NCBI RefSeq assembly: GCF_003003775.1
Contig: NZ_PVWJ01000012.1
Span: forward strand, 1-62,122
From: Merismopedia glauca CCAP 1448/3
GTDB lineage: Bacteria > Cyanobacteriota > Cyanobacteriia > Cyanobacteriales > CCAP-1448
Direction: 5' to 3'
Length of the DNA: 62,122 nucleotides
Positions 10,347 to 44,753 of this stretch are shown here, in pieces. Made by a program: the position numbers and the translations under genes. The notes beneath the pieces are model-generated. The model was not told where the DNA came from, ran no database searches, and saw only the letters and a list, made by a program, of their open reading frames with translations. Every line of letters begins with the position of its first letter. The first letter of the stretch is position 1.

Positions 10347-10521
10347 AATTTAAAATTTACTCCTTAAAACAAGGGATTGGTGAATCTTTAGACTTAATAT
10401 TCCGATATAACCCCTAACTAAAACATCACTCTTCCGAATCATCTTAATTTATCGGTAGTATGGTTTATCTGGAGTCAGACTTAGAAAATGTCTAGGACTT
10501 GCTATGAGAAAGTCTCCTGAT

Positions 10522-10710
10522 TTAGGATTCTGGCTCACTATTAATTTCAATCTCTAGAGTATCCTCATCCAGATAAATGAAAAGTACATTAGGCTGACAG
10601 CAAACCTGACAGTCTTCAACGTAAGACTGCTGGGTTCCTGCACTTAAGTCAACAAAAGTCAAATTGGTTTCACCACAGTAAGCACAGATATATTCAGCCG
10701 TATTCTGCAT
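10522..10710 (-). CDS. CPXCG-type cysteine-rich zinc-ribbon protein
   Basis: A 62-residue protein with two cysteine pairs, ICAYCGE near the start and DCQVCCQP in the middle, which together would bind one zinc. A short acidic C-terminus (DEDTLEIEINSEPES) follows. The length and the spacing of the two pairs fit the CPXCG-motif-containing family of unknown function found across bacteria. It is divergent from the ene-reductase gene. Confidence 0.85.
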   Translation of the reverse strand: MQNTAEYICAYCGETNLTFVDLSAGTQQSYVEDCQVCCQPNVLFIYLDEDTLEIEINSEPES

Positions 10711-10799
10711 AGGGAAACGATAATTGGGTGGGCATTGTCGATCTTAATTCAGTAGTCTAGGTATTGTTATTGCCGCAACTCATAGGAAATAATTGATTG

Positions 10800-11924
10800 A
10801 TGGTTTCTTTAACAAAATCAGCTTCATTACTGAGTTCTTTGGAACTAGGGGATTTATCCCTTCGCAATCGAGTTGTGATGGCTCCCATGACGCGATCGCG
10901 CGCAGGTGAAGAACGGATGCCAAATGCTTTGATGGCAGAACATTATGCTCAAAGAGCCTCAGCCGGATTAATTATTACAGAAGCGACAGTAGTTTCTCAA
11001 CAAGGTATTGGTTGGCTCAATACTCCTGGTATTTATACAGATGAGCAAGCAGAAGCCTGGAAACAGGTTGTTGATGCCGTTCATGCCCAAGGTACGCCGA
11101 TTTTTCTGCAACTATGGCATTGTGGAAGAGCTTCCCACAGCAGTTTTCAACCAAACGGGCAACTCCCAGTTGCACCTTCAGCCATACCGATTCAAGGAGA
11201 AGGAATTTATACCCCCATCGGTAAGCAACCCCATGAAACGCCCCGTGCTTTAGAAACAGAAGAAATAGCTCAGATTGTGGCGGATTTTCGGCACGCCTCC
11301 CAACTCGCCAAAATAGCTGGTTTCGATGGCGTAGAATTACACTCAGCCAACGGTTATCTCCTCGATGAGTTTTTGCAGTCTCGAACCAATCAACGGAGCG
11401 ATCGCTATGGTGGTAGTATTCCCAATCGCTATCGATTTGTGCGAGAAATAGTGGAGGCGGTACTAACAGTATGGTCACCTAATCGCCTGGGGATTCGATT
11501 GGCTCCCAATGGCATCTACAACGACATGGGTTCAGAGGATTTTCGGGAAACCTTTTTATATGTGGCTGAGCAGTTAAATACCTACGGATTAGCCTATCTC
11601 CATTTAGTTGATGGATTAGCCTTTGGATTTCATAGCTATGGGGAACCAATGACCTTAAAAGAGTTTCGCCAGGTGTTTGATGGTCTCATCATGGGGAACT
11701 GCGGCTACACCCAAGCTACGGCTGAAAGTGCGATCGCCCAAGGTGATGCCGATCTGATTTCCTTTGGAAGAGATTTTATCGCTAATCCCGATCTAGTAGA
11801 GCGGTTCACTAACGGATGGCCCCTAAGTCCTTCTGCTGAGCCACAAGTTTGGTATTCCTTCGATCCCGAAGGTTATACCGATTTCCCACCTTATGCAGAA
11901 ACGGCGGCTTCTACCACCCTTTAA
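10800..11924 (+). CDS. Old Yellow Enzyme family FMN ene-reductase (NemA-like)
   Basis: 374 residues from the ATG at 10800; the codon just before it is an in-frame TTG. A single TIM-barrel flavoprotein. Visible signs are RVVMAPMTRSRA at the FMN site, the LQLWHCGRASH stretch with the OYE His, GFDGVELHSANGYLLDEFLQ, NQRSDRYGGS, and the phosphate-binding ADLISFGRDFIANPDL near the end. Such enzymes reduce activated C=C bonds with NAD(P)H and serve in detoxification; the physiological substrate is unknown. A hairpin follows the stop. Confidence 0.93.
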   Translation: MVSLTKSASLLSSLELGDLSLRNRVVMAPMTRSRAGEERMPNALMAEHYAQRASAGLIITEATVVSQQGIGWLNTPGIYTDEQAEAWKQVVDAVHAQGTPIFLQLWHCGRASHSSFQPNGQLPVAPSAIPIQGEGIYTPIGKQPHETPRALETEEIAQIVADFRHASQLAKIAGFDGVELHSANGYLLDEFLQSRTNQRSDRYGGSIPNRYRFVREIVEAVLTVWSPNRLGIRLAPNGIYNDMGSEDFRETFLYVAEQLNTYGLAYLHLVDGLAFGFHSYGEPMTLKEFRQVFDGLIMGNCGYTQATAESAIAQGDADLISFGRDFIANPDLVERFTNGWPLSPSAEPQVWYSFDPEGYTDFPPYAETAASTTL

Positions 11925-11943
11925 TAGCCATTTATTTAGTAGT

Positions 11944-11969
11944 TGAGGGTACTGCTAAGCTTACCCTCA
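11944..11969 (+). terminator. Hairpin after the ene-reductase gene
   Basis: Perfect 8-bp stem TGAGGGTA / TACCCTCA with a 10-base loop, 20 bp after the stop codon. No T-run follows, so it is only a possible terminator. Confidence 0.4.
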
Positions 11970-12008
11970 GCCTAAACTTAATTTATCGATAGTTTACTGA
12001 AATCAGAA

Positions 12009-12425
12009 ATGCCAGCTAGAGATATTTACCATAATGCTATTAAAAATGCTTTGATTAAGGATGGTTGGAGAATTACAGCAGATCCTTATAAAATCAAGTA
12101 TAAAGATGCTGAACTATTTGCGGATCTAGCTGCGGAAAAAACTATAGCTGCTGAACGCGATGATTTCCGAATAATTGTTGAAATTAAAAGCTTCTTAAGT
12201 CCTTCTCCTATGCAAGATTTTGAATTAGCACTAGGTCAATATATTTTATATCGTAATTTAATTAATCTAACCGAGCCAGAATATCAAATTTACCTAGCAA
12301 TTAGAGAAAGTACATATGAAAACTTTTTTACTAGAGAGTCAATTAAAGAGGTTATGCATATGAATCAAGTTTTACTCATTGTGGTTGATACAGACCAGGA
12401 GGAAATTAGACAATGGATAAATTAG
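12009..12425 (+). CDS. xisH: XisH family protein
   Basis: 138 residues. The family was first described as one of the controlling factors of fdxN-element excision in Anabaena heterocysts. Homologues are spread through cyanobacteria that have no such element. The fold is a small PD-(D/E)XK nuclease type: the segment ADLAAEKTIAAE followed by the core IIVEIKSF supplies an E-x-K motif. It overlaps xisI by 13 bp, so the two are cotranslated. No excision element or recombinase is visible nearby, so the role here is not excision as far as can be seen. Confidence 0.92.
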   Translation: MPARDIYHNAIKNALIKDGWRITADPYKIKYKDAELFADLAAEKTIAAERDDFRIIVEIKSFLSPSPMQDFELALGQYILYRNLINLTEPEYQIYLAIRESTYENFFTRESIKEVMHMNQVLLIVVDTDQEEIRQWIN

Positions 12426-12754
12426 AAAAATATCGAACCTTGCTCAAAAAAATCCTAAATGAATACCACCAATGGGTTTCTGGCTCATCAAATTTGACCG
12501 ATGAAAGCTGTTTAGTATTTGATGAAACTCACGACCATTATCTCTGGTTATTTATGGGTTGGGAAGGTAAGAAAAAAGTCAAAAATATTCAAGTTCATGT
12601 CTGCATTAAAGACCAAAAAATTTGGATTGAGGAAGATTGGACAGAAGCAGGTATTACTACAGATTTATTGAGACAAGGTGTTCCAAACAGTGATATTGTT
12701 CTAGCCTTTCATCCTCCAGAAGAAAGGAAGTTTACTGAGTTTGCCACAGCTTAA
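12413..12754 (+). CDS. xisI: XisI family protein
   Basis: 113 residues, the usual partner of XisH. Family hallmarks are the start DKLEKYRTLLKKILNEYHQW, the DHYLWLFMGWEGKKKV strand pair, IWIEEDWTEAGI, and VLAFHPPEERKFTEFA near the end. It starts inside xisH, which points to a stable two-protein complex. The obligate pairing of a nuclease-like protein with a small partner resembles toxin-antitoxin organisation; that is an inference. Confidence 0.93.
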   Translation: MDKLEKYRTLLKKILNEYHQWVSGSSNLTDESCLVFDETHDHYLWLFMGWEGKKKVKNIQVHVCIKDQKIWIEEDWTEAGITTDLLRQGVPNSDIVLAFHPPEERKFTEFATA

Positions 12755-12815
12755 TAAATGACGCGATCGCAGGTCTATAGTCACATCTAATCTTGATATA
12801 GCAATTAGTTGAAAT

Positions 12816-12880
12816 CATTGTGGGGCGATTATCTTACCCGCCCCAATTATTCATTTAAAATGTGCAACAGCTTATCACTT
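12816..12880. repeat. TTGTGGGG...CCTGCCCCA-type repeat
   Basis: TTGTGGGGCGATTATCTTAC followed by CCGCCCCAATTAT and a tail ATGTGCAACAGCTTATCA. The same arrangement with the tail (ATGCGGAACAACTTATGA) is at 38471-38530, and partial copies are at 36420 and 38578. It lies between xisI and the convergent TerB-like gene. Confidence 0.6.
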
Positions 12881-35787: not shown

Positions 35788-36030
35788 ATGAAATCCCAAA
35801 TCGGTCAGTGGGGTAACTCTTTGGCAATTCGGATTCCTAAATATGCAGTGGAAGCATTGAAATTAAAGGCTAACGATGCGGTTGAATGTTCGGTAGAGTC
35901 AGGTAAGTTAACTATTGTCCCCATACAGCCTTTACCAGAACTAACTTTAGAAGAGTTGTTAGCAGAGGTGACAGAAACTTCCGCACCCGAAGTTGATTGG
36001 GGAAAAGCGACTGGAGAAGAAATTTGGTAG
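35788..36030 (+). CDS. mazE: MazE-type antitoxin (AbrB-like DNA-binding domain)
   Basis: 80 residues. The N-terminal swapped-hairpin domain reads KSQIGQWGNSLAIRIPKYAV, followed by LKANDAVECSVESGKLTIVP, the typical MazE/SpoVT-AbrB pattern. The acidic C-terminal tail (about 50-80) would wrap the toxin. It overlaps mazF by 7 bp if the toxin starts at TTG 36024. MazE neutralises MazF and, with it, represses the promoter. Confidence 0.9.
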   Translation: MKSQIGQWGNSLAIRIPKYAVEALKLKANDAVECSVESGKLTIVPIQPLPELTLEELLAEVTETSAPEVDWGKATGEEIW

Positions 36031-36359
36031 CCTATATTCCTTTACGGGGTCATTTTATTTGGCTGAATTTCGATCCTCAAGCTGGTTACGAACAAATGGG
36101 TAAGCGTCCTGCTTTGGTAGTGAGTTACGATGCCTTCAACCAAAAAATGGGATTTGCGTTCGTTTGTCCAGTTAGTAACACTCAACGTCAAAATCCCTTT
36201 TATGTAACCATTCCCGAAGGTGATGCTGTAACTGGAGTAATTATGACAGACCAAATGCGCTCTCTCGACTTTAGAGCGAGAAATGCTACTTTTATCAGCG
36301 AATGTCCCGATTTCGTACTTCAAGATGTTTTGAGACGGATTAAACCTATCATTTTTTAA
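36024..36359 (+). CDS. mazF: MazF-type mRNA interferase toxin
   Basis: 111 residues from TTG at 36024, which gives the family-like N-terminus VAYIPLRGHFIWLNFDPQAG. An ATG nine codons earlier (35997) adds unrelated residues encoded within mazE. Conserved parts are GKRPALVVSYDAFN, FVCPVSNTQR, VIMTDQMRSLDFRAR and a C-terminal helix. MazF toxins cut single-stranded RNA at short sequences. The pair looks intact and functional. Confidence 0.9.
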   Translation: MVAYIPLRGHFIWLNFDPQAGYEQMGKRPALVVSYDAFNQKMGFAFVCPVSNTQRQNPFYVTIPEGDAVTGVIMTDQMRSLDFRARNATFISECPDFVLQDVLRRIKPIIF

Positions 36360-38739: not shown

Positions 38740-38912
38740 AACATTGCCTCGATCGCTAGAATAATTGTTCAAACGATTAGAAACCGCCTCACTATCAATA
38801 AACATAATGATTTACGAAAGATCTGCTATGACTTCAAAATATGATAGTAGGATCGGAGTTACCAGTATAAATTTTGCCAGAACCAGTTCAACGGTTGAGA
38901 ACACTAGCACCA

Positions 38913-40832
38913 ATGGTAACTACTCCTGTACAAAAGAAGCTTTCTAAAGTAGAAGGTCTAAAAGAAGATAGTAATTATTTACGAGAACCCGTAGCCACAG
39001 AATTACTAGAGGATACTAACTGTTTTACCGAAGATGCGACTCAAATCCTCAAGTTTCACGGTTCTTATCAACAAGACAATCGAGATAATCGCGTCAAAGG
39101 TCAGGAAAAAGACTATCAGTTCATGCTGAGGACGCGCAATCCTGGAGGGTTTATTCCACCGCAGTTGTATCTAGCTTTAGATAAGATGGCGGATGACTAC
39201 GGTAATGGCACTTTGCGGGCTACTACTCGTCAAGGCTTTCAAATGCACGGGATTTTGAAGAAAAATCTCAAAGCGGCGATCGCTACTATTGTCAATAATC
39301 TGGGTTCGACTTTGGGGGCTTGTGGCGACCTCAATCGTAACGTCATGGCTCCCCCAGTGCCTTATAAGAACCGCCCAGAGTACCAGTACGCATGGGAGTA
39401 CGCGACTAATGTAGCTGACTTGTTAACTCCGCAAACAGGGGCTTATTACGAGATTTGGCTGGATGGAGAAAAGGCAATTTCTGCCGAAGAAAGTCCAGAA
39501 GTCAAAGCTGCACGCCAAAGCAACGGAAACGGAACCATAATTCACGAAGGTGAAGAGCCGCTCTACGGTTCTCATTATATGCCCCGCAAGTTCAAGTGTT
39601 CGGTGACTGTTCCTGGAGATAATTCAGTCGATTTATTCTCTCAAGATGTCAGTTTGGTAGTGATTACCAACAAAAAGAAAGAACTCCAAGGCTTTAATGT
39701 CTATGCTGGTGGTGGTTTAGGGCGGACTCACAATAAAGAGGAAACCTTCGCTAGAGTTGCAGATCCCATTGGATATGTCGAAAAAGAGGATATTTACAAT
39801 TTAATTAAAGCTATTCTCTCTACCCAAAGAGATTACGGCGATCGCACCAACCGTCGTCACGCACGGATGAAGTACCTGATTAATGATTGGGGTGTAGCCA
39901 AGTTTAAAACCACTGTGGAAGGTTATTTTGGTAAAGAAATCGCCCCATTGAAACCTCTACCTGAATTTAAATACAAAGACTTTTTGGGTTGGGAAGAACA
40001 GGGAGATGGCAAACTCTTTTTAGGAATATCCATCGACAATGGTCGCATTAAAGATGAAGGTAATTTCCAGTTAAGAACAGCTTTGCGGGAAATTGTCGCC
40101 AAGTACTCCGTACCCATGCGCGTGACGCCCCATCAGAACGTGTTGCTGTATGATATTGCACCCGAAGCGCGATCACCCATCACCGAAATTCTCACCCGTT
40201 GCGGTGTAATTGTCGAACCCAAAGAGATTGAGACTTTAACGCGTTACTCAATGGCTTGTCCCGCACTACCCACCTGTGGCTTAGCCGTCACGGAATCGGA
40301 AAGAGTCATCCCCAGTATCTTAGAACGGATTCGCGCCTTACTAGATAAATTGGGGCTACAGAACGAATCATTTGTAATTAGGATGACTGGCTGTCCCAAC
40401 GGTTGCGCCCGTCCCTACATGGCAGAATTAGGCTTTGTGGGTAGTTTTCCTGAATCATACCAAGTGTGGTTAGCAGGGTGTCCAGATCAAACTCGTCTGG
40501 CGCAAGTTTATACAGATAGGGTACACGTCAACGATCTAGAAACCTTCTTTGAGCCGATTTTTGTCTACTTCAAGCAAAGCAAGCAGAAAAAAGAAAGCTT
40601 TGGCGACTTCTGCCATAGAGTGGGTTTAGATGCAATTCGCGAGTTTACAGCCAATTACGATCCTAATGCCAGTAAATCGGCAACGGGAAGTAAAAGTAGC
40701 AAACGCGCGCCGAGAATTAGCCTGAAACCGGATGTATACAGTCAGTTGAAGGAAGCAGCAGCAAAACAAAACACATCGATGACAGAGATTGCGAATCAAG
40801 CCTTGGCGGATTATTTAGCTAAATTGTCTTAG
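38913..40832 (+). CDS. sir: Ferredoxin-dependent sulfite reductase with C-terminal ribbon-helix-helix-like tail
   Basis: 639 residues from the ATG at 38913. The siroheme/4Fe-4S protein has the paired half-domains of the family. Cluster ligands are visible in [13 protein letters not shown] and [13 protein letters not shown]; substrate residues lie in [22 protein letters not shown] and [11 protein letters not shown]. It reduces sulfite to sulfide with ferredoxin electrons for cysteine synthesis. Residues about 598-639 ([20 protein letters not shown] followed by [11 protein letters not shown]) resemble a CopG/Arc-type ribbon-helix-helix, joined by a Ser/Lys-rich linker. DNA contact is possible; chloroplast SiR is known to bind nucleoid DNA. 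A bidirectional hairpin separates it from the convergent gene. Confidence 0.93.
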
Positions 40833-40889: not shown

Positions 40890-41429
40890 TTAGGCGACTT
40901 CTCTTAATTCATCACCCATGTTTATATTTTTCAAAGTATTACCAATCCCTTTTATAAAGAGATAGTTAGCTGTACCAACAACTGCTACTGATGCTATTGG
41001 GATAAGTCTAAATACCGTTGTTCGTCCCAATATCTGAGGAAGGACTTTTATCATACAGGCAATTACTAATTGATGAGCTGCTCTTGCTGCTACTGTTGTC
41101 CCCATTTCCACACCTAAAGACATGGCAAAGATGTTTAAAAACCCTCTGAATGAAGGATTATATGTTCCTGTCTTATAGTAGATGACAGCAAGAGTTACCC
41201 TGATTTGCTGAAAAATTGTGTGTGCAATATCAACAGGAACACCAGCTATCGATATTGGTGATGTGACAACAGCAGAAGCGATAGTCAGTCTAGCGCAATG
41301 CTCCACGAAATCATCTATTCCTTTTTCATCTACTCCTTTCTTAATGCCATATTTATTGACACTTTCAAAAGTTTCTTTGAATTTCTCTGCAAGGTGCTCC
41401 GCTAGCTCATAATAATTGTTATTGCTCAT
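40890..41429 (-). CDS. EcsC-like membrane protein, divergent partner of the HTH-GTPase
   Basis: 179 residues from the ATG at 41429 (MSNNNYYEL). A polar helical N-terminus (about 1-50) is followed by hydrophobic, glycine/alanine-rich segments (ASAVVTSPISIAGVPVDIAH, FLNIFAMSLGVEMGTTVAAR, LIPIASVAVVGTANYLFIKG). The layout resembles EcsC-like or DUF697-like membrane-associated proteins, which often accompany GTPases; the match is by pattern only. It shares a 250-bp divergent promoter region with the dynamin-like gene, so coregulation is likely. Confidence 0.55.
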   Translation of the reverse strand: MSNNNYYELAEHLAEKFKETFESVNKYGIKKGVDEKGIDDFVEHCARLTIASAVVTSPISIAGVPVDIAHTIFQQIRVTLAVIYYKTGTYNPSFRGFLNIFAMSLGVEMGTTVAARAAHQLVIACMIKVLPQILGRTTVFRLIPIASVAVVGTANYLFIKGIGNTLKNINMGDELREVA

Positions 41430-41501
41430 AATCCTCATGGAAATAAATTTGCAGGACAGCCGTGTTTAGTTCTCTCATCAATGAGTAGAGTAAAATAAAA
41501 C

Positions 41502-41517
41502 TACCCATATATGGGTA
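41502..41517. promoter_or_regulatory. Perfect palindrome in the divergent promoter, candidate HTH operator
   Basis: TACCCATATATGGGTA, 16 bp, located 72 bp from the EcsC-like start and 163 bp from the GTPase start. A second palindrome TTGTTAACAA (41641-41650), flanked by GCAAA and TTTGC, lies 30 bp before the GTPase start. The XRE domain of the GTPase protein or another repressor could bind either one. Confidence 0.55.
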
Positions 41518-41680
41518 AACCTATTTTTTATAAATTCTAGCAAACTATTGTAGTTTTTATCGGGTTTTTATTTTTCGTATTATATTTTTATAATTATTTA
41601 CAATCTATTTTGGTGTATGATTAAGTTAGCTTATGCAAATTTGTTAACAACGAAGTTTGCAAGTGAGGGTATTTTATTTG

Positions 41681-43861
41681 ATGAGTAATACATGGTTACG
41701 AGATCTTAGAAATAAGAAAGGTTACTCTCAAGCGTTTGTAGCCGACTATCTAAATATTTCTCAATCTCAATATGGTCGATTTGAAACAGATCCAGATGAT
41801 ATACCTTTTGGAAAGATAAAAGCCTTGGGCATTATTCTTGGATTTGATCCTAGCGAAATAGATAAGATCCAATATAAATTTCCAGGAATCAATATTGGAG
41901 ATCCTTATGAGAAAAATAGGGAGTACTCAAAAGTTCTCAAGCAATATATCTTACCAAAAGTAGAAATTTCACTAGAATCAAACTTGTTTAATCTATGTGA
42001 CTTTAATAATTTAGAATCTAGTCAATTAAGCAAGTTTTTAGAAGAATTCGATCAAAAACCAACTGTAGCTATTGCAGGAAAATTTGATACAGGAAAAACT
42101 CGCTTAGCAAATTATCTTCTAGGTGGTGAATACTTACCAGTTAGAAGACAACCAGCCACAAAATTTCTCAATATCATCAGACATATAAGTGATGCACCTG
42201 CGTGGTTAAGAGATCGTATATACAAAGAGAATGAGCAGGTCTTTTTGCTATCACAGAATTTCTGGAGCGATAATGACTCATTAAATTTTAATCTTTCTTA
42301 TCTTGAGGATGAAGCAAGATTCAATGACACGAAGAACTGTCTAAAATCTCTTACTCTATATGCCCTACATGAATATGGTGTATATGTTCATCAACCCTCA
42401 CAAAGAGCCATTTTCAAGCACATAGAGATACCTGCTCATACAGCAGTAATTTATATTGATTCTCCTTTTCTGCTCTCATGCAATTTAATTGATACTCCAG
42501 GAGTCAACGAACAACTTAACCTTATTGTTGATGATTCTAGATTAAAACCTATTTCAGAATTGATGGATGTTTTAATTTATATGTCACAGTTAAATGGATT
42601 CATGGATACTGTAGATCAAATAATTATTAAATACTTTCTAAGTATGTCTATTAAAGATGTGCATAGAGCCAAAAACCATCCCATGTTTGGTAATGTGTTT
42701 TTAGTTTGTTCGCAAGCTAGTCCCAGCATTATTCCAAAAGATAATGAATTACAGGAGGTTTTAGAAACTGGTGCAGAAAGGTTATATAACCCAATTGAAG
42801 AATCTGTAGTTTCTATTTTGGAACAATACAACGACGCAGAGTATTCCCAAGCTAAATTAGCTGAACAATTTTTTTCTTTTTGGGCAGAGTCTGATAAAAG
42901 AAGTGAAAAACTTGTAAAAAAATTGTCAGAATATCTAAAAGTTACTTTACCTAAAGCTTATTTATTTCGTTTAGAAGAAAAAATAATTCAACTAAAAAAA
43001 AATTATGATAACCAATACGATCGAGTTATTCATTATTTTGAAAATCTCAAAGAAAACTTACAAATGGCTACTGTTGAGCTAAAACGTCTAGAAGAATATG
43101 AATTAGAAATAAATAGAGAAATGGATCGGAAAAGATCTGAAATAAAGCTTTTTATAAACAAACAAAAAACAGATGGAATAAATGATTTTTACACAAGAGT
43201 TAATAAAATCCTCGCTCTCGACCAGCTAGAAGAAATTATTAACTTTAAATATAAACAGCATGGAAGAGAGGAAGCAACTAAAAATGCTCCTTTGTTTATA
43301 TTTAGCAAGTTGGAGAGAGAAGCTATTATCATATCCGAAGAAGGCTATGAAAACTCAAAACAGTTATTAAATGAATTTTGTGAAACAATTTATAATGATT
43401 TTAATAAGTCTTTTAAAGTTACAAAATCTGTGGATAGTATAAGTGATTTCTCTCTTAATAACTATAAACTTTACTTTCCATTTGCTCGTTCAACAATGCT
43501 AATAGGCTATCTTATCAGTTCTGTTTTTGGTGTACCAGGATTGATTATAGGTTTTAATATTGCTATGATAGCTTGGGTTTTTAATAGAGAATCTTGGCAA
43601 AAGAGACTTGCAAAACAGATTAAAGATAGGTTTGAAGAGGAAGCATTTGTTGAAAAGGTATCTGAAAAAATCGAAATATTCTGGAATAAGTTAGAAGAAA
43701 TCTTTAACAAAGCTTTAGATGAGTTCGAGCATGATATGAAAAAGCTGATCAAAGAACGCGAAAAGATAGTTAAGATGCAAAATATTAGTGATATAAACAA
43801 TCATATTGAACACTTAAAGGATTTACGTGAGTTTTTTGAAAAAATTCCTGATAGTTTCTAG
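41681..43861 (+). CDS. XRE-type HTH fused to a dynamin-like GTPase with membrane hairpin
   Basis: 726 residues from the ATG at 41681, with GAGG upstream; a longer frame begins with TTG. Residues 3-62 form a Cro/C1-type HTH (TWLRDLRNKKGYSQAFVADY, then LNISQSQYGRFE). The GTPase domain starts near 125: P-loop GKFDTGKT (133-140), a candidate switch I Thr160 in RRQPATKF, and DTPG (271-274). Long charged helices follow (about 430-590), then a hydrophobic hairpin around 596-635 (MLIGYLISSVFGVPGLIIGF), then more coiled coil. This is the plan of bacterial dynamin-like proteins, which remodel or tether membranes. A sequence-specific DNA-binding domain on such a protein is unusual. The DNA is AT-rich compared with the neighbours, suggesting transfer. 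The role could be phage defence or stress-triggered membrane action. Confidence 0.8.
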   Translation: MSNTWLRDLRNKKGYSQAFVADYLNISQSQYGRFETDPDDIPFGKIKALGIILGFDPSEIDKIQYKFPGINIGDPYEKNREYSKVLKQYILPKVEISLESNLFNLCDFNNLESSQLSKFLEEFDQKPTVAIAGKFDTGKTRLANYLLGGEYLPVRRQPATKFLNIIRHISDAPAWLRDRIYKENEQVFLLSQNFWSDNDSLNFNLSYLEDEARFNDTKNCLKSLTLYALHEYGVYVHQPSQRAIFKHIEIPAHTAVIYIDSPFLLSCNLIDTPGVNEQLNLIVDDSRLKPISELMDVLIYMSQLNGFMDTVDQIIIKYFLSMSIKDVHRAKNHPMFGNVFLVCSQASPSIIPKDNELQEVLETGAERLYNPIEESVVSILEQYNDAEYSQAKLAEQFFSFWAESDKRSEKLVKKLSEYLKVTLPKAYLFRLEEKIIQLKKNYDNQYDRVIHYFENLKENLQMATVELKRLEEYELEINREMDRKRSEIKLFINKQKTDGINDFYTRVNKILALDQLEEIINFKYKQHGREEATKNAPLFIFSKLEREAIIISEEGYENSKQLLNEFCETIYNDFNKSFKVTKSVDSISDFSLNNYKLYFPFARSTMLIGYLISSVFGVPGLIIGFNIAMIAWVFNRESWQKRLAKQIKDRFEEEAFVEKVSEKIEIFWNKLEEIFNKALDEFEHDMKKLIKEREKIVKMQNISDINNHIEHLKDLREFFEKIPDSF

Positions 43862-43985: not shown

Positions 43986-44330
43986 ATGGCAAAGTTACCA
44001 GATCTAACGATCGCTACAGTTCTTCGTTTGCAGCAACAATTATTAGAATCGATTAACGAAACGACAGAGGCTGAGTTCCTCTTATTTGAACAATTTGGTG
44101 AAACAGACGAAACTAACGATTACTTCGATCAACTTCAAAATTCTAAAGAGCGAGCAGAGTCCTATTATTTGCGTTTATTTACGGTTTTAAGGGAAATCTA
44201 TCGCTCTCAACCTATGGCTTCTCGTGATAATCTAAAGTTACTCGATCGATATATTAATGAAGCTGAAGCTACAATTGATGCTATAGCTGCTACAGTCTCT
44301 GAAATTAGGAGAGATTTTCACCTGCCATGA
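43986..44330 (+). CDS. Small helical protein, first gene of a two-gene unit
   Basis: 114 residues from the ATG at 43986. Almost wholly helical and charged (VLRLQQQLLESINETTEAEF, NSKERAESYYLRLFTVLREI, LLDRYINEAEATIDAIAATV). No domain was recognised. Its stop overlaps the start of the next gene (ATGA), so the two are translationally coupled and their products probably interact. The arrangement suggests a toxin-antitoxin-like or adaptor pair, without direct evidence. Confidence 0.6.
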   Translation: MAKLPDLTIATVLRLQQQLLESINETTEAEFLLFEQFGETDETNDYFDQLQNSKERAESYYLRLFTVLREIYRSQPMASRDNLKLLDRYINEAEATIDAIAATVSEIRRDFHLP

Positions 44331-44530
44331 ACAATGAACCTAGAATACCCGATCTAGAAACCAGAGTGCGACATCTTACCAAATTGCGACAACTATCAGA
44401 ATGCATGGATCGTCATCTGGCAGATTTGGATGAATTAAATGCTCGATTGCAAGCAGAAAATCAAAAAAGTCCGTTGGCTATTTACCATAAAAAAAGACAA
44501 CAGCGTTTAGCAGAACTAGCAAAAGAATAG
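44327..44530 (+). CDS. Small coiled-coil protein, second gene of the unit
   Basis: 67 residues, highly charged, predicted coiled coil (ETRVRHLTKLRQLSECMDRH followed by LADLDELNARLQAENQ) with a basic C-terminus. It starts within the stop of the preceding gene. No family was recognised. Confidence 0.55.
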   Translation: MNNEPRIPDLETRVRHLTKLRQLSECMDRHLADLDELNARLQAENQKSPLAIYHKKRQQRLAELAKE

Positions 44531-44561: not shown

Positions 44562-44753
44562 TTACAGATAATTGAAAAACTGCTGATGTTTTTGAAAAGC
44601 TGCTTTTAAGAGTGGATTTGGCTCTGGAGGATTATCGATCGCCTCAAAAACTAGATTGGCATCTCGCTGTGAAAGCTCAATGGTGCGATCGCTCTTTATA
44701 TTTAAATGAGCTTCTTTTAGGGCTGCTTGAACTAAAAATTGGTTTAATGACAT
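44562..44753 (-). pseudogene. N-terminally truncated DUF1778 (TacA-like) antitoxin
   Basis: 63 residues: MSLNQFLVQAALKEAH, then TIELSQRDANLVFEAIDNPP and EPNPLLKAAFQKH. This is the second helix and C-terminal arm of DUF1778/TacA antitoxins. The N-terminal ribbon with its DNA-binding strand (about 20 residues) is absent, and an in-frame TGA precedes the ATG. No acetyltransferase toxin gene is adjacent. It is most likely a relic, although a short peptide could still be made. Confidence 0.7.

Follow-up and report, generated by a model that had tools for sequence, protein, structure and literature searches.

A family of dynamin-like GTPases with an N-terminal XRE domain, as seen at a divergent locus of Merismopedia glauca

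The dynamin-like GTPases are familiar as machines of the membrane. A conserved subfamily bearing an XRE (Cro/C1-type) helix-turn-helix (HTH) would mean a dynamin able to control transcription directly, a simple and testable way for membrane damage or phage attack to act on gene expression. A gene with this predicted architecture (XRE-DLP, an XRE domain on a dynamin-like protein, DLP) is present in Merismopedia glauca CCAP 1448/3, on a stretch of 62,122 nucleotides (contig NZ_PVWJ01000012.1, contig 12 of a 5.2-Mb cyanobacterial assembly; hereafter the window), and lies divergent to a gene for a small membrane protein (Table 1). Here we ask whether the fusion is real, whether the two genes form a system, and what role XRE-DLP may have.

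Table 1. Positions of the features considered, numbered from the first nucleotide of the window
Feature	Position	Strand	Basis
MazE/PemK toxin-antitoxin	35788-36359		ORF listing, Pfam
Divergent EcsC-like membrane protein, 182 aa	40890..41438	-	ORF; relatives match EcsC, PDC-S29/S30
Shared divergent intergenic region, 242 bp	41439..41680	.	sequence
Perfect 16-bp palindrome TACCCATATATGGGTA, possible operator for the XRE domain	41502..41517	.	sequence
XRE-DLP gene	41681..43861	+	ATG-started ORF, 726 aa; Pfam HTH_3 and Dynamin_N; AlphaFold2 model
XRE (Cro/C1-type) helix-turn-helix, residues 6-59	41696..41857	+	Pfam HTH_3, family alignment
Dynamin_N GTPase core, residues 129-280	42065..42520	+	Pfam, motif alignment
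P-loop GKFDTGKT	42077-42100	+	motif alignment
Hydrophobic paddle stretch, residues 604-635	43490..43585	+	hydropathy
TacA1-like antitoxin	44562-44753	-	ORF listing, Pfam

Domains and predicted fold of XRE-DLP

The first-pass annotation of this DNA had read an XRE domain joined in-frame to a dynamin-type GTPase, and the open reading frame as well as Pfam confirmed it, both domains scoring above the curated cut-offs (HTH_3: 36.8 bits, E 3.9e-9, cut-off 23; Dynamin_N: 33.9 bits, E 4.1e-8, cut-off 27). Motif alignment revealed G1 to G3 as GKFDTGKT (133-140), QPAT and DTPG (271-274). In place of the (T/N)KxD-like G4 motif the window copy has SQAS, most cyanobacterial relatives having THAD. Since G4 varies within the family (THAN, THAH and SQAQ also occur), it is not a defining trait of membership here. 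The GTPase is followed by long helices (residues 354-578) and a short hydrophobic stretch, in agreement with the membrane segment and helices noticed earlier. DynA of Bacillus subtilis joins two DLPs head to tail, whereas Pfam found a single Dynamin_N stretch in XRE-DLP, which has one GTPase domain together with the HTH.

The AlphaFold2 model of the window protein, built on a 17-member alignment (mean pLDDT 73.8), showed a five-helix N-terminal bundle (residues 5-61), then the GTPase and long helical stalks. The model matched BDLP of Nostoc (2J69) with a Z score of 15.7 over 566 residues (rmsd 6.6) and mitofusin/Fzo1 with Z scores of 16.5-20, and Foldseek matched it to BDLP 2J68 with E 2e-12; by sequence, XRE-DLP gave no match to BDLP at E 1. 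The structural matches spanned residues 70-726 and took in a BDLP-like stalk and hydrophobic paddle, the paddle of the model being short and low in confidence. Structure prediction, proposed earlier as a check on the fusion, thus returned a BDLP/mitofusin fold from residue 70 onward, and as the matches begin at about that residue, XRE-DLP is predicted to be a complete DLP with an added XRE domain before it. The five-helix HTH_3 domain of XRE/Cro-C1 repressors was recognised by Pfam and in the model; the HTH assignment rests on sequence, the structural search having barely probed the N-terminal part.

Among known systems, BDLP (2J68/2J69) and mitofusin/Fzo1 have the GTPase, helical stalk and paddle in common with XRE-DLP, which differs from BDLP in the extra domain in front and, for the window copy, in a shorter paddle region. 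Weak profile similarity was observed with LeoA/LeoBC (E 1.3e-7 for the window protein, down to 5e-17 for relatives). LeoA/BC, however, is a set of neighbouring DLP genes (PMC4159319) for which no XRE domain is described, whereas the window XRE-DLP is without a tandem partner DLP; with this protein as query, no second dynamin was detected in the assembly at E 0.01. On its sequence features, XRE-DLP may be classed as a variant of the bacterial dynamin-like proteins. When the window protein and nine others, of which seven are family members, were scanned with PADLOC 2.0.0, no model spanned the whole architecture and the partial matches were chiefly to LeoA/LeoBC and HTH models. No XRE- or HTH-dynamin was found in the open-access literature searched.

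Distribution of XRE-DLP and its gene neighbourhoods

Matches to the window XRE-DLP were obtained in 22 of 391 genomes of the same order, mostly at about 30% identity. A first scan of contigs with the window protein as lone query gave no matches; the alignment-based scan added Myxococcales, proteobacterial, Latescibacterota, Sneathiellales and Chromatiales loci, and its named relatives include Nostoc, Fischerella and Microcoleus. Homologues do keep the HTH: it was present in 22 of 23 jointly aligned proteins from five phyla, the exception being a distant cyanobacterial relative (L053). The XRE-dynamin architecture is common to Cyanobacteriota, Pseudomonadota, Myxococcota, Latescibacterota and Bacillota. 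The HTH scored above the Pfam cut-off in the scanned proteobacterial, Latescibacterota, Lactiplantibacillus, Lactococcus and Carboxydocella copies, and just under it in the Myxococcales copy. Since the domain order is kept across phyla, the fusion is not a chance one, and a misread start was ruled out as the source of the HTH, which is in-frame and conserved across the family. Judged by these alignments, XRE-DLP is a genuine family with conserved architecture, the conserved unit being the XRE-DLP gene alone.

A search of plasmid proteins yielded ten XRE-DLP records (Lactococcus six, Lactiplantibacillus two, Acinetobacter one and Carboxydocella one), all ten typed as mobilizable. A phage origin was rejected, as no relative was present among the viral contigs searched; four records of Vibrio phages match in the dynamin but lack the HTH part.

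Defence-related neighbours were observed at some loci. In a proteobacterial MAG, a QatA homologue (E 1e-155) lies 0.36 kb downstream of XRE-DLP, and in a Myxococcales MAG (L068) a DUF4365-dynamin fusion (10399-12825) lies 0.2 kb downstream; the latter is another dynamin whose N-terminal domain is of nucleic-acid type. On plasmid pSD96_06 of Lactococcus lactis (L085, 6001-13666), two XRE-DLP genes flank genes matching PDC-M09A (E 3e-108) and PDC-M09B (E 4e-170). One of these XRE-DLPs has a shortened and the other a full-length paddle, and the PDC-M09A/B genes carry glycine-rich hydrophobic stretches. The window has no PDC-M09 gene, nor are any listed alongside the XRE-DLPs of pIL7 and pUCCL637D, for which the PLSDB gene tables are incomplete. 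Two cyanobacterial XRE-DLPs have, immediately upstream, a 115-aa membrane protein weakly like PDC-M09A (E 1e-4), and an ATPase matching PDC-M28B is near a further one. Many cyanobacterial loci have ordinary neighbours only. The association of XRE-DLP with defence genes is thus suggestive and uneven. Small glycine-rich membrane proteins may be a recurrent partner (the window, L047/L052, L043 and L085).

At 8 of the 20 loci L034-L053, a divergent HTH-NB-ARC gene (~470 aa) accompanies XRE-DLP. It was discarded as a general partner, since the dynamins concerned fall in one clade and the HTH-NB-ARC family is multicopy (2-31 matches per genome), pairs divergently with many unrelated genes and is not adjacent in the window; we treat it as a generic local regulator. 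Of 20 HTH-NB-ARC paralogues sampled, most had an upstream divergent gene, the kind of which varied, and in several the start was closely preceded by 4-6 phased direct repeats (GTCnGAAA-like), which are probable autoregulatory iterons; the loci so observed were L036, L038, L042, L047, L049, L052, L116, L122, L128 and L130. At L121, the genes divergent to HTH-NB-ARC appear by eye to encode a JAB-type peptidase-like (317 aa) and an E2-like (161 aa) protein, a pair that looks like a bacterial ubiquitin-like pair.

The claim that the Merismopedia locus is AT-rich was borne out by a GC content of 29-34% over the XRE-DLP gene, with nirA and nrtCD on its flanks at 43-46%. Other genes are found beside nrtD in the relatives examined, so that XRE-DLP and its divergent neighbour look like an AT-rich accessory insert. 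The toxin-antitoxin setting was also as noted, with MazE/PemK and a TacA1-like antitoxin; beside the latter no toxin ORF of at least 60 aa was found, and it is an orphan or relic. Directly downstream of XRE-DLP (43986-44530, forward strand), two overlapping ORFs of 114 and 67 aa have no Pfam family above cut-off. The ferredoxin-nitrite reductase (38874-40832, forward strand) has a 42-residue C-terminal tail that looks ribbon-helix-helix-like by eye; Pfam gives NIR_SIR domains alone. A second nrt-like nitrate transport cluster is present in the same genome (G000:C3:1336-6566, locus L114).

The divergent EcsC-like gene and the shared intergenic region

The divergent gene had been named EcsC-like, a label which stands through relatives of its product and not through the window protein itself, as the latter had no Pfam match and matched the PADLOC profile PDC-S29 weakly (E 0.003). 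Two further genomes of the order carry relatives (39-42% identity); a weaker one (~20%) was also found, and a Streptomyces plasmid has another (39% identity). The Streptomyces relative passed the EcsC profile PF12787 (33.7 bits, cut-off 30.4) and two others scored just under its cut-off, while all four matched PDC-S29 (E 3e-12 to 5e-24) and PDC-S30. A single-sequence model of the window protein was uninformative (pLDDT 41.7).

Two of the relatives adjoin proteins of 1492-1494 aa, and the one scanned (1494 aa) was a CHAT-NACHT-HEAT protein. At both loci (L080, 4610-10133; L081, 9624-14835) the large protein is followed by the small EcsC-like membrane protein, and CHAT-NACHT-HEAT plus small EcsC-like protein, as at L080, is a candidate protease-plus-membrane-effector pair. 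The Streptomyces relative has an AAA_16-TPR-LuxR STAND protein on one side and a NACHT-HEAT protein on the other, and the interval also holds other small genes and a Crp-like regulator. Such neighbours place the small EcsC-like family near NLR-like conflict proteins. In the window, the ORFs either side of 40890-43861 included no CHAT, NACHT or other STAND gene of the kind found in described systems (PMC7159879).

The first-pass annotation had further proposed that the two divergent genes act as one system. A profile of the small EcsC-like family, however, detected no copy at any other XRE-DLP stretch fetched up to that search, and no XRE-DLP was present beside the relatives of the EcsC-like protein in their genomes or stretches. 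On the loci so searched, a conserved two-gene system was therefore rejected, and as far as searched, the pairing appears private to the window.

The two genes do have in common an intergenic region of nearly the length first estimated (~250 bp; 242 bp measured). Within it lies the perfect palindrome TACCCATATATGGGTA, 63 bp from the start of the EcsC-like gene and about 163-164 bp from that of the dynamin gene. This is the one exact copy in the assembly, and palindromes as long arose in ~1% of shuffles of the intergenic region; it is also readable as a weak terminator-like hairpin. Upstream of relatives, no common palindrome or conserved operator was found. TACCCATATATGGGTA is a candidate operator and no more, and with its help self-regulation of XRE-DLP is plausible.

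Possible role of XRE-DLP

The XRE-DLP gene is probably antiphage or membrane-protective. The reading we prefer, by analogy and with a little less than even confidence, is that XRE-DLP is an accessory, autoregulated DLP that acts on the membrane under phage attack or damage. From what is known of the XRE family, the XRE domain would repress its own promoter via an operator in the shared intergenic region, and in the Merismopedia genome the same repression would extend to the EcsC-like gene. Upon phage attack or membrane damage, GTP-loaded XRE-DLP would polymerise on the inner membrane through its paddle, BDLP being a precedent for GTP-driven membrane assembly via the paddle (PMC2862293). The membrane-bound protein would then stabilise or remodel the bilayer and delay lysis, as does DynA of Bacillus subtilis, a bacterial DLP with a demonstrated antiphage effect (PMC8844932). 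The pull to the membrane may also take XRE-DLP off its operator and raise expression, a step for which we found no precedent. The EcsC-like protein, in turn, would serve as a second effector at the membrane, one recruited locally and not an obligate partner.

The case for defence is an indirect one, made by the patchy distribution, the mobilizable plasmids, the QatA, PDC-M09A/B and DUF4365-dynamin neighbours, and the EcsC-like relatives, with their PDC-S29/S30 matches and adjoining CHAT-NACHT and STAND genes; autoregulation is suggested by a perfect palindrome in a divergent region. The preferred reading is weakened by the lack of a common operator in relatives, by ordinary neighbours at many loci, and by the changed G4, short paddle and long branch of the window copy. 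The operator is made doubtful by its distance from the dynamin start and its hairpin-like reading. The findings also point to a probable antiphage family for which PADLOC 2.0.0 has no dedicated model and whose members already occur on plasmids of dairy Lactococcus, a host in which phages are routinely tested.

A stronger form, which we hold to be unlikely, makes XRE-DLP a bifunctional switch, at once a DNA-bound repressor and a membrane effector, with a PDC-S29-like EcsC effector under the same operator here. Infection or membrane damage would move the protein from operator to bilayer, thereby coupling sensing, derepression and repair in a single polypeptide.

Membrane maintenance in place of defence, by an XRE-regulated DLP answering envelope stress in the manner of BDLP or SynDLP, is likewise an unlikely account. 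The fold is closest to Nostoc BDLP and the mitofusins, and the ordinary neighbourhoods of many cyanobacterial copies agree with it, but occurrence in so few genomes of the order, carriage on mobilizable plasmids and the QatA, PDC-M09 and DUF4365-dynamin neighbours fit an accessory defence gene better.

That XRE-DLP tethers DNA to the membrane or senses foreign DNA seems improbable. On this view the dynamin part would keep hold of the membrane and the XRE domain would bind DNA, either invading or chromosomal, so that DNA at the membrane triggers assembly. Retention of the HTH in nearly all members, solitary plasmid-borne copies included, agrees with this. The support for DNA sensing goes no further than the presence of the XRE domain itself. 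XRE domains usually read a single operator close to their own gene, and here the intergenic region holds a palindrome; with one exact copy in the assembly, it gave no sign of many genomic sites.

The window copy itself is unusual. In the tree it groups with the cyanobacterial members; its end branch measures 2.3 substitutions per site, and because of this length its exact position is unsure. Its paddle region has 66 residues as compared to 90-108 in nearly all relatives, the sole shorter one in the alignment being a Lactococcus copy (51 residues). These features, together with the changed G4 and the missing EcsC-like gene at other loci, could point to a diverging or decaying member with an accidental pairing, which we consider improbable too, since 726 codons have stayed open in a stretch of ~31% GC with the G1-G3 and HTH residues intact, G4 varies in other members as well, and the Lactococcus copy with the still shorter paddle lies on the same plasmid as a full-length sister.
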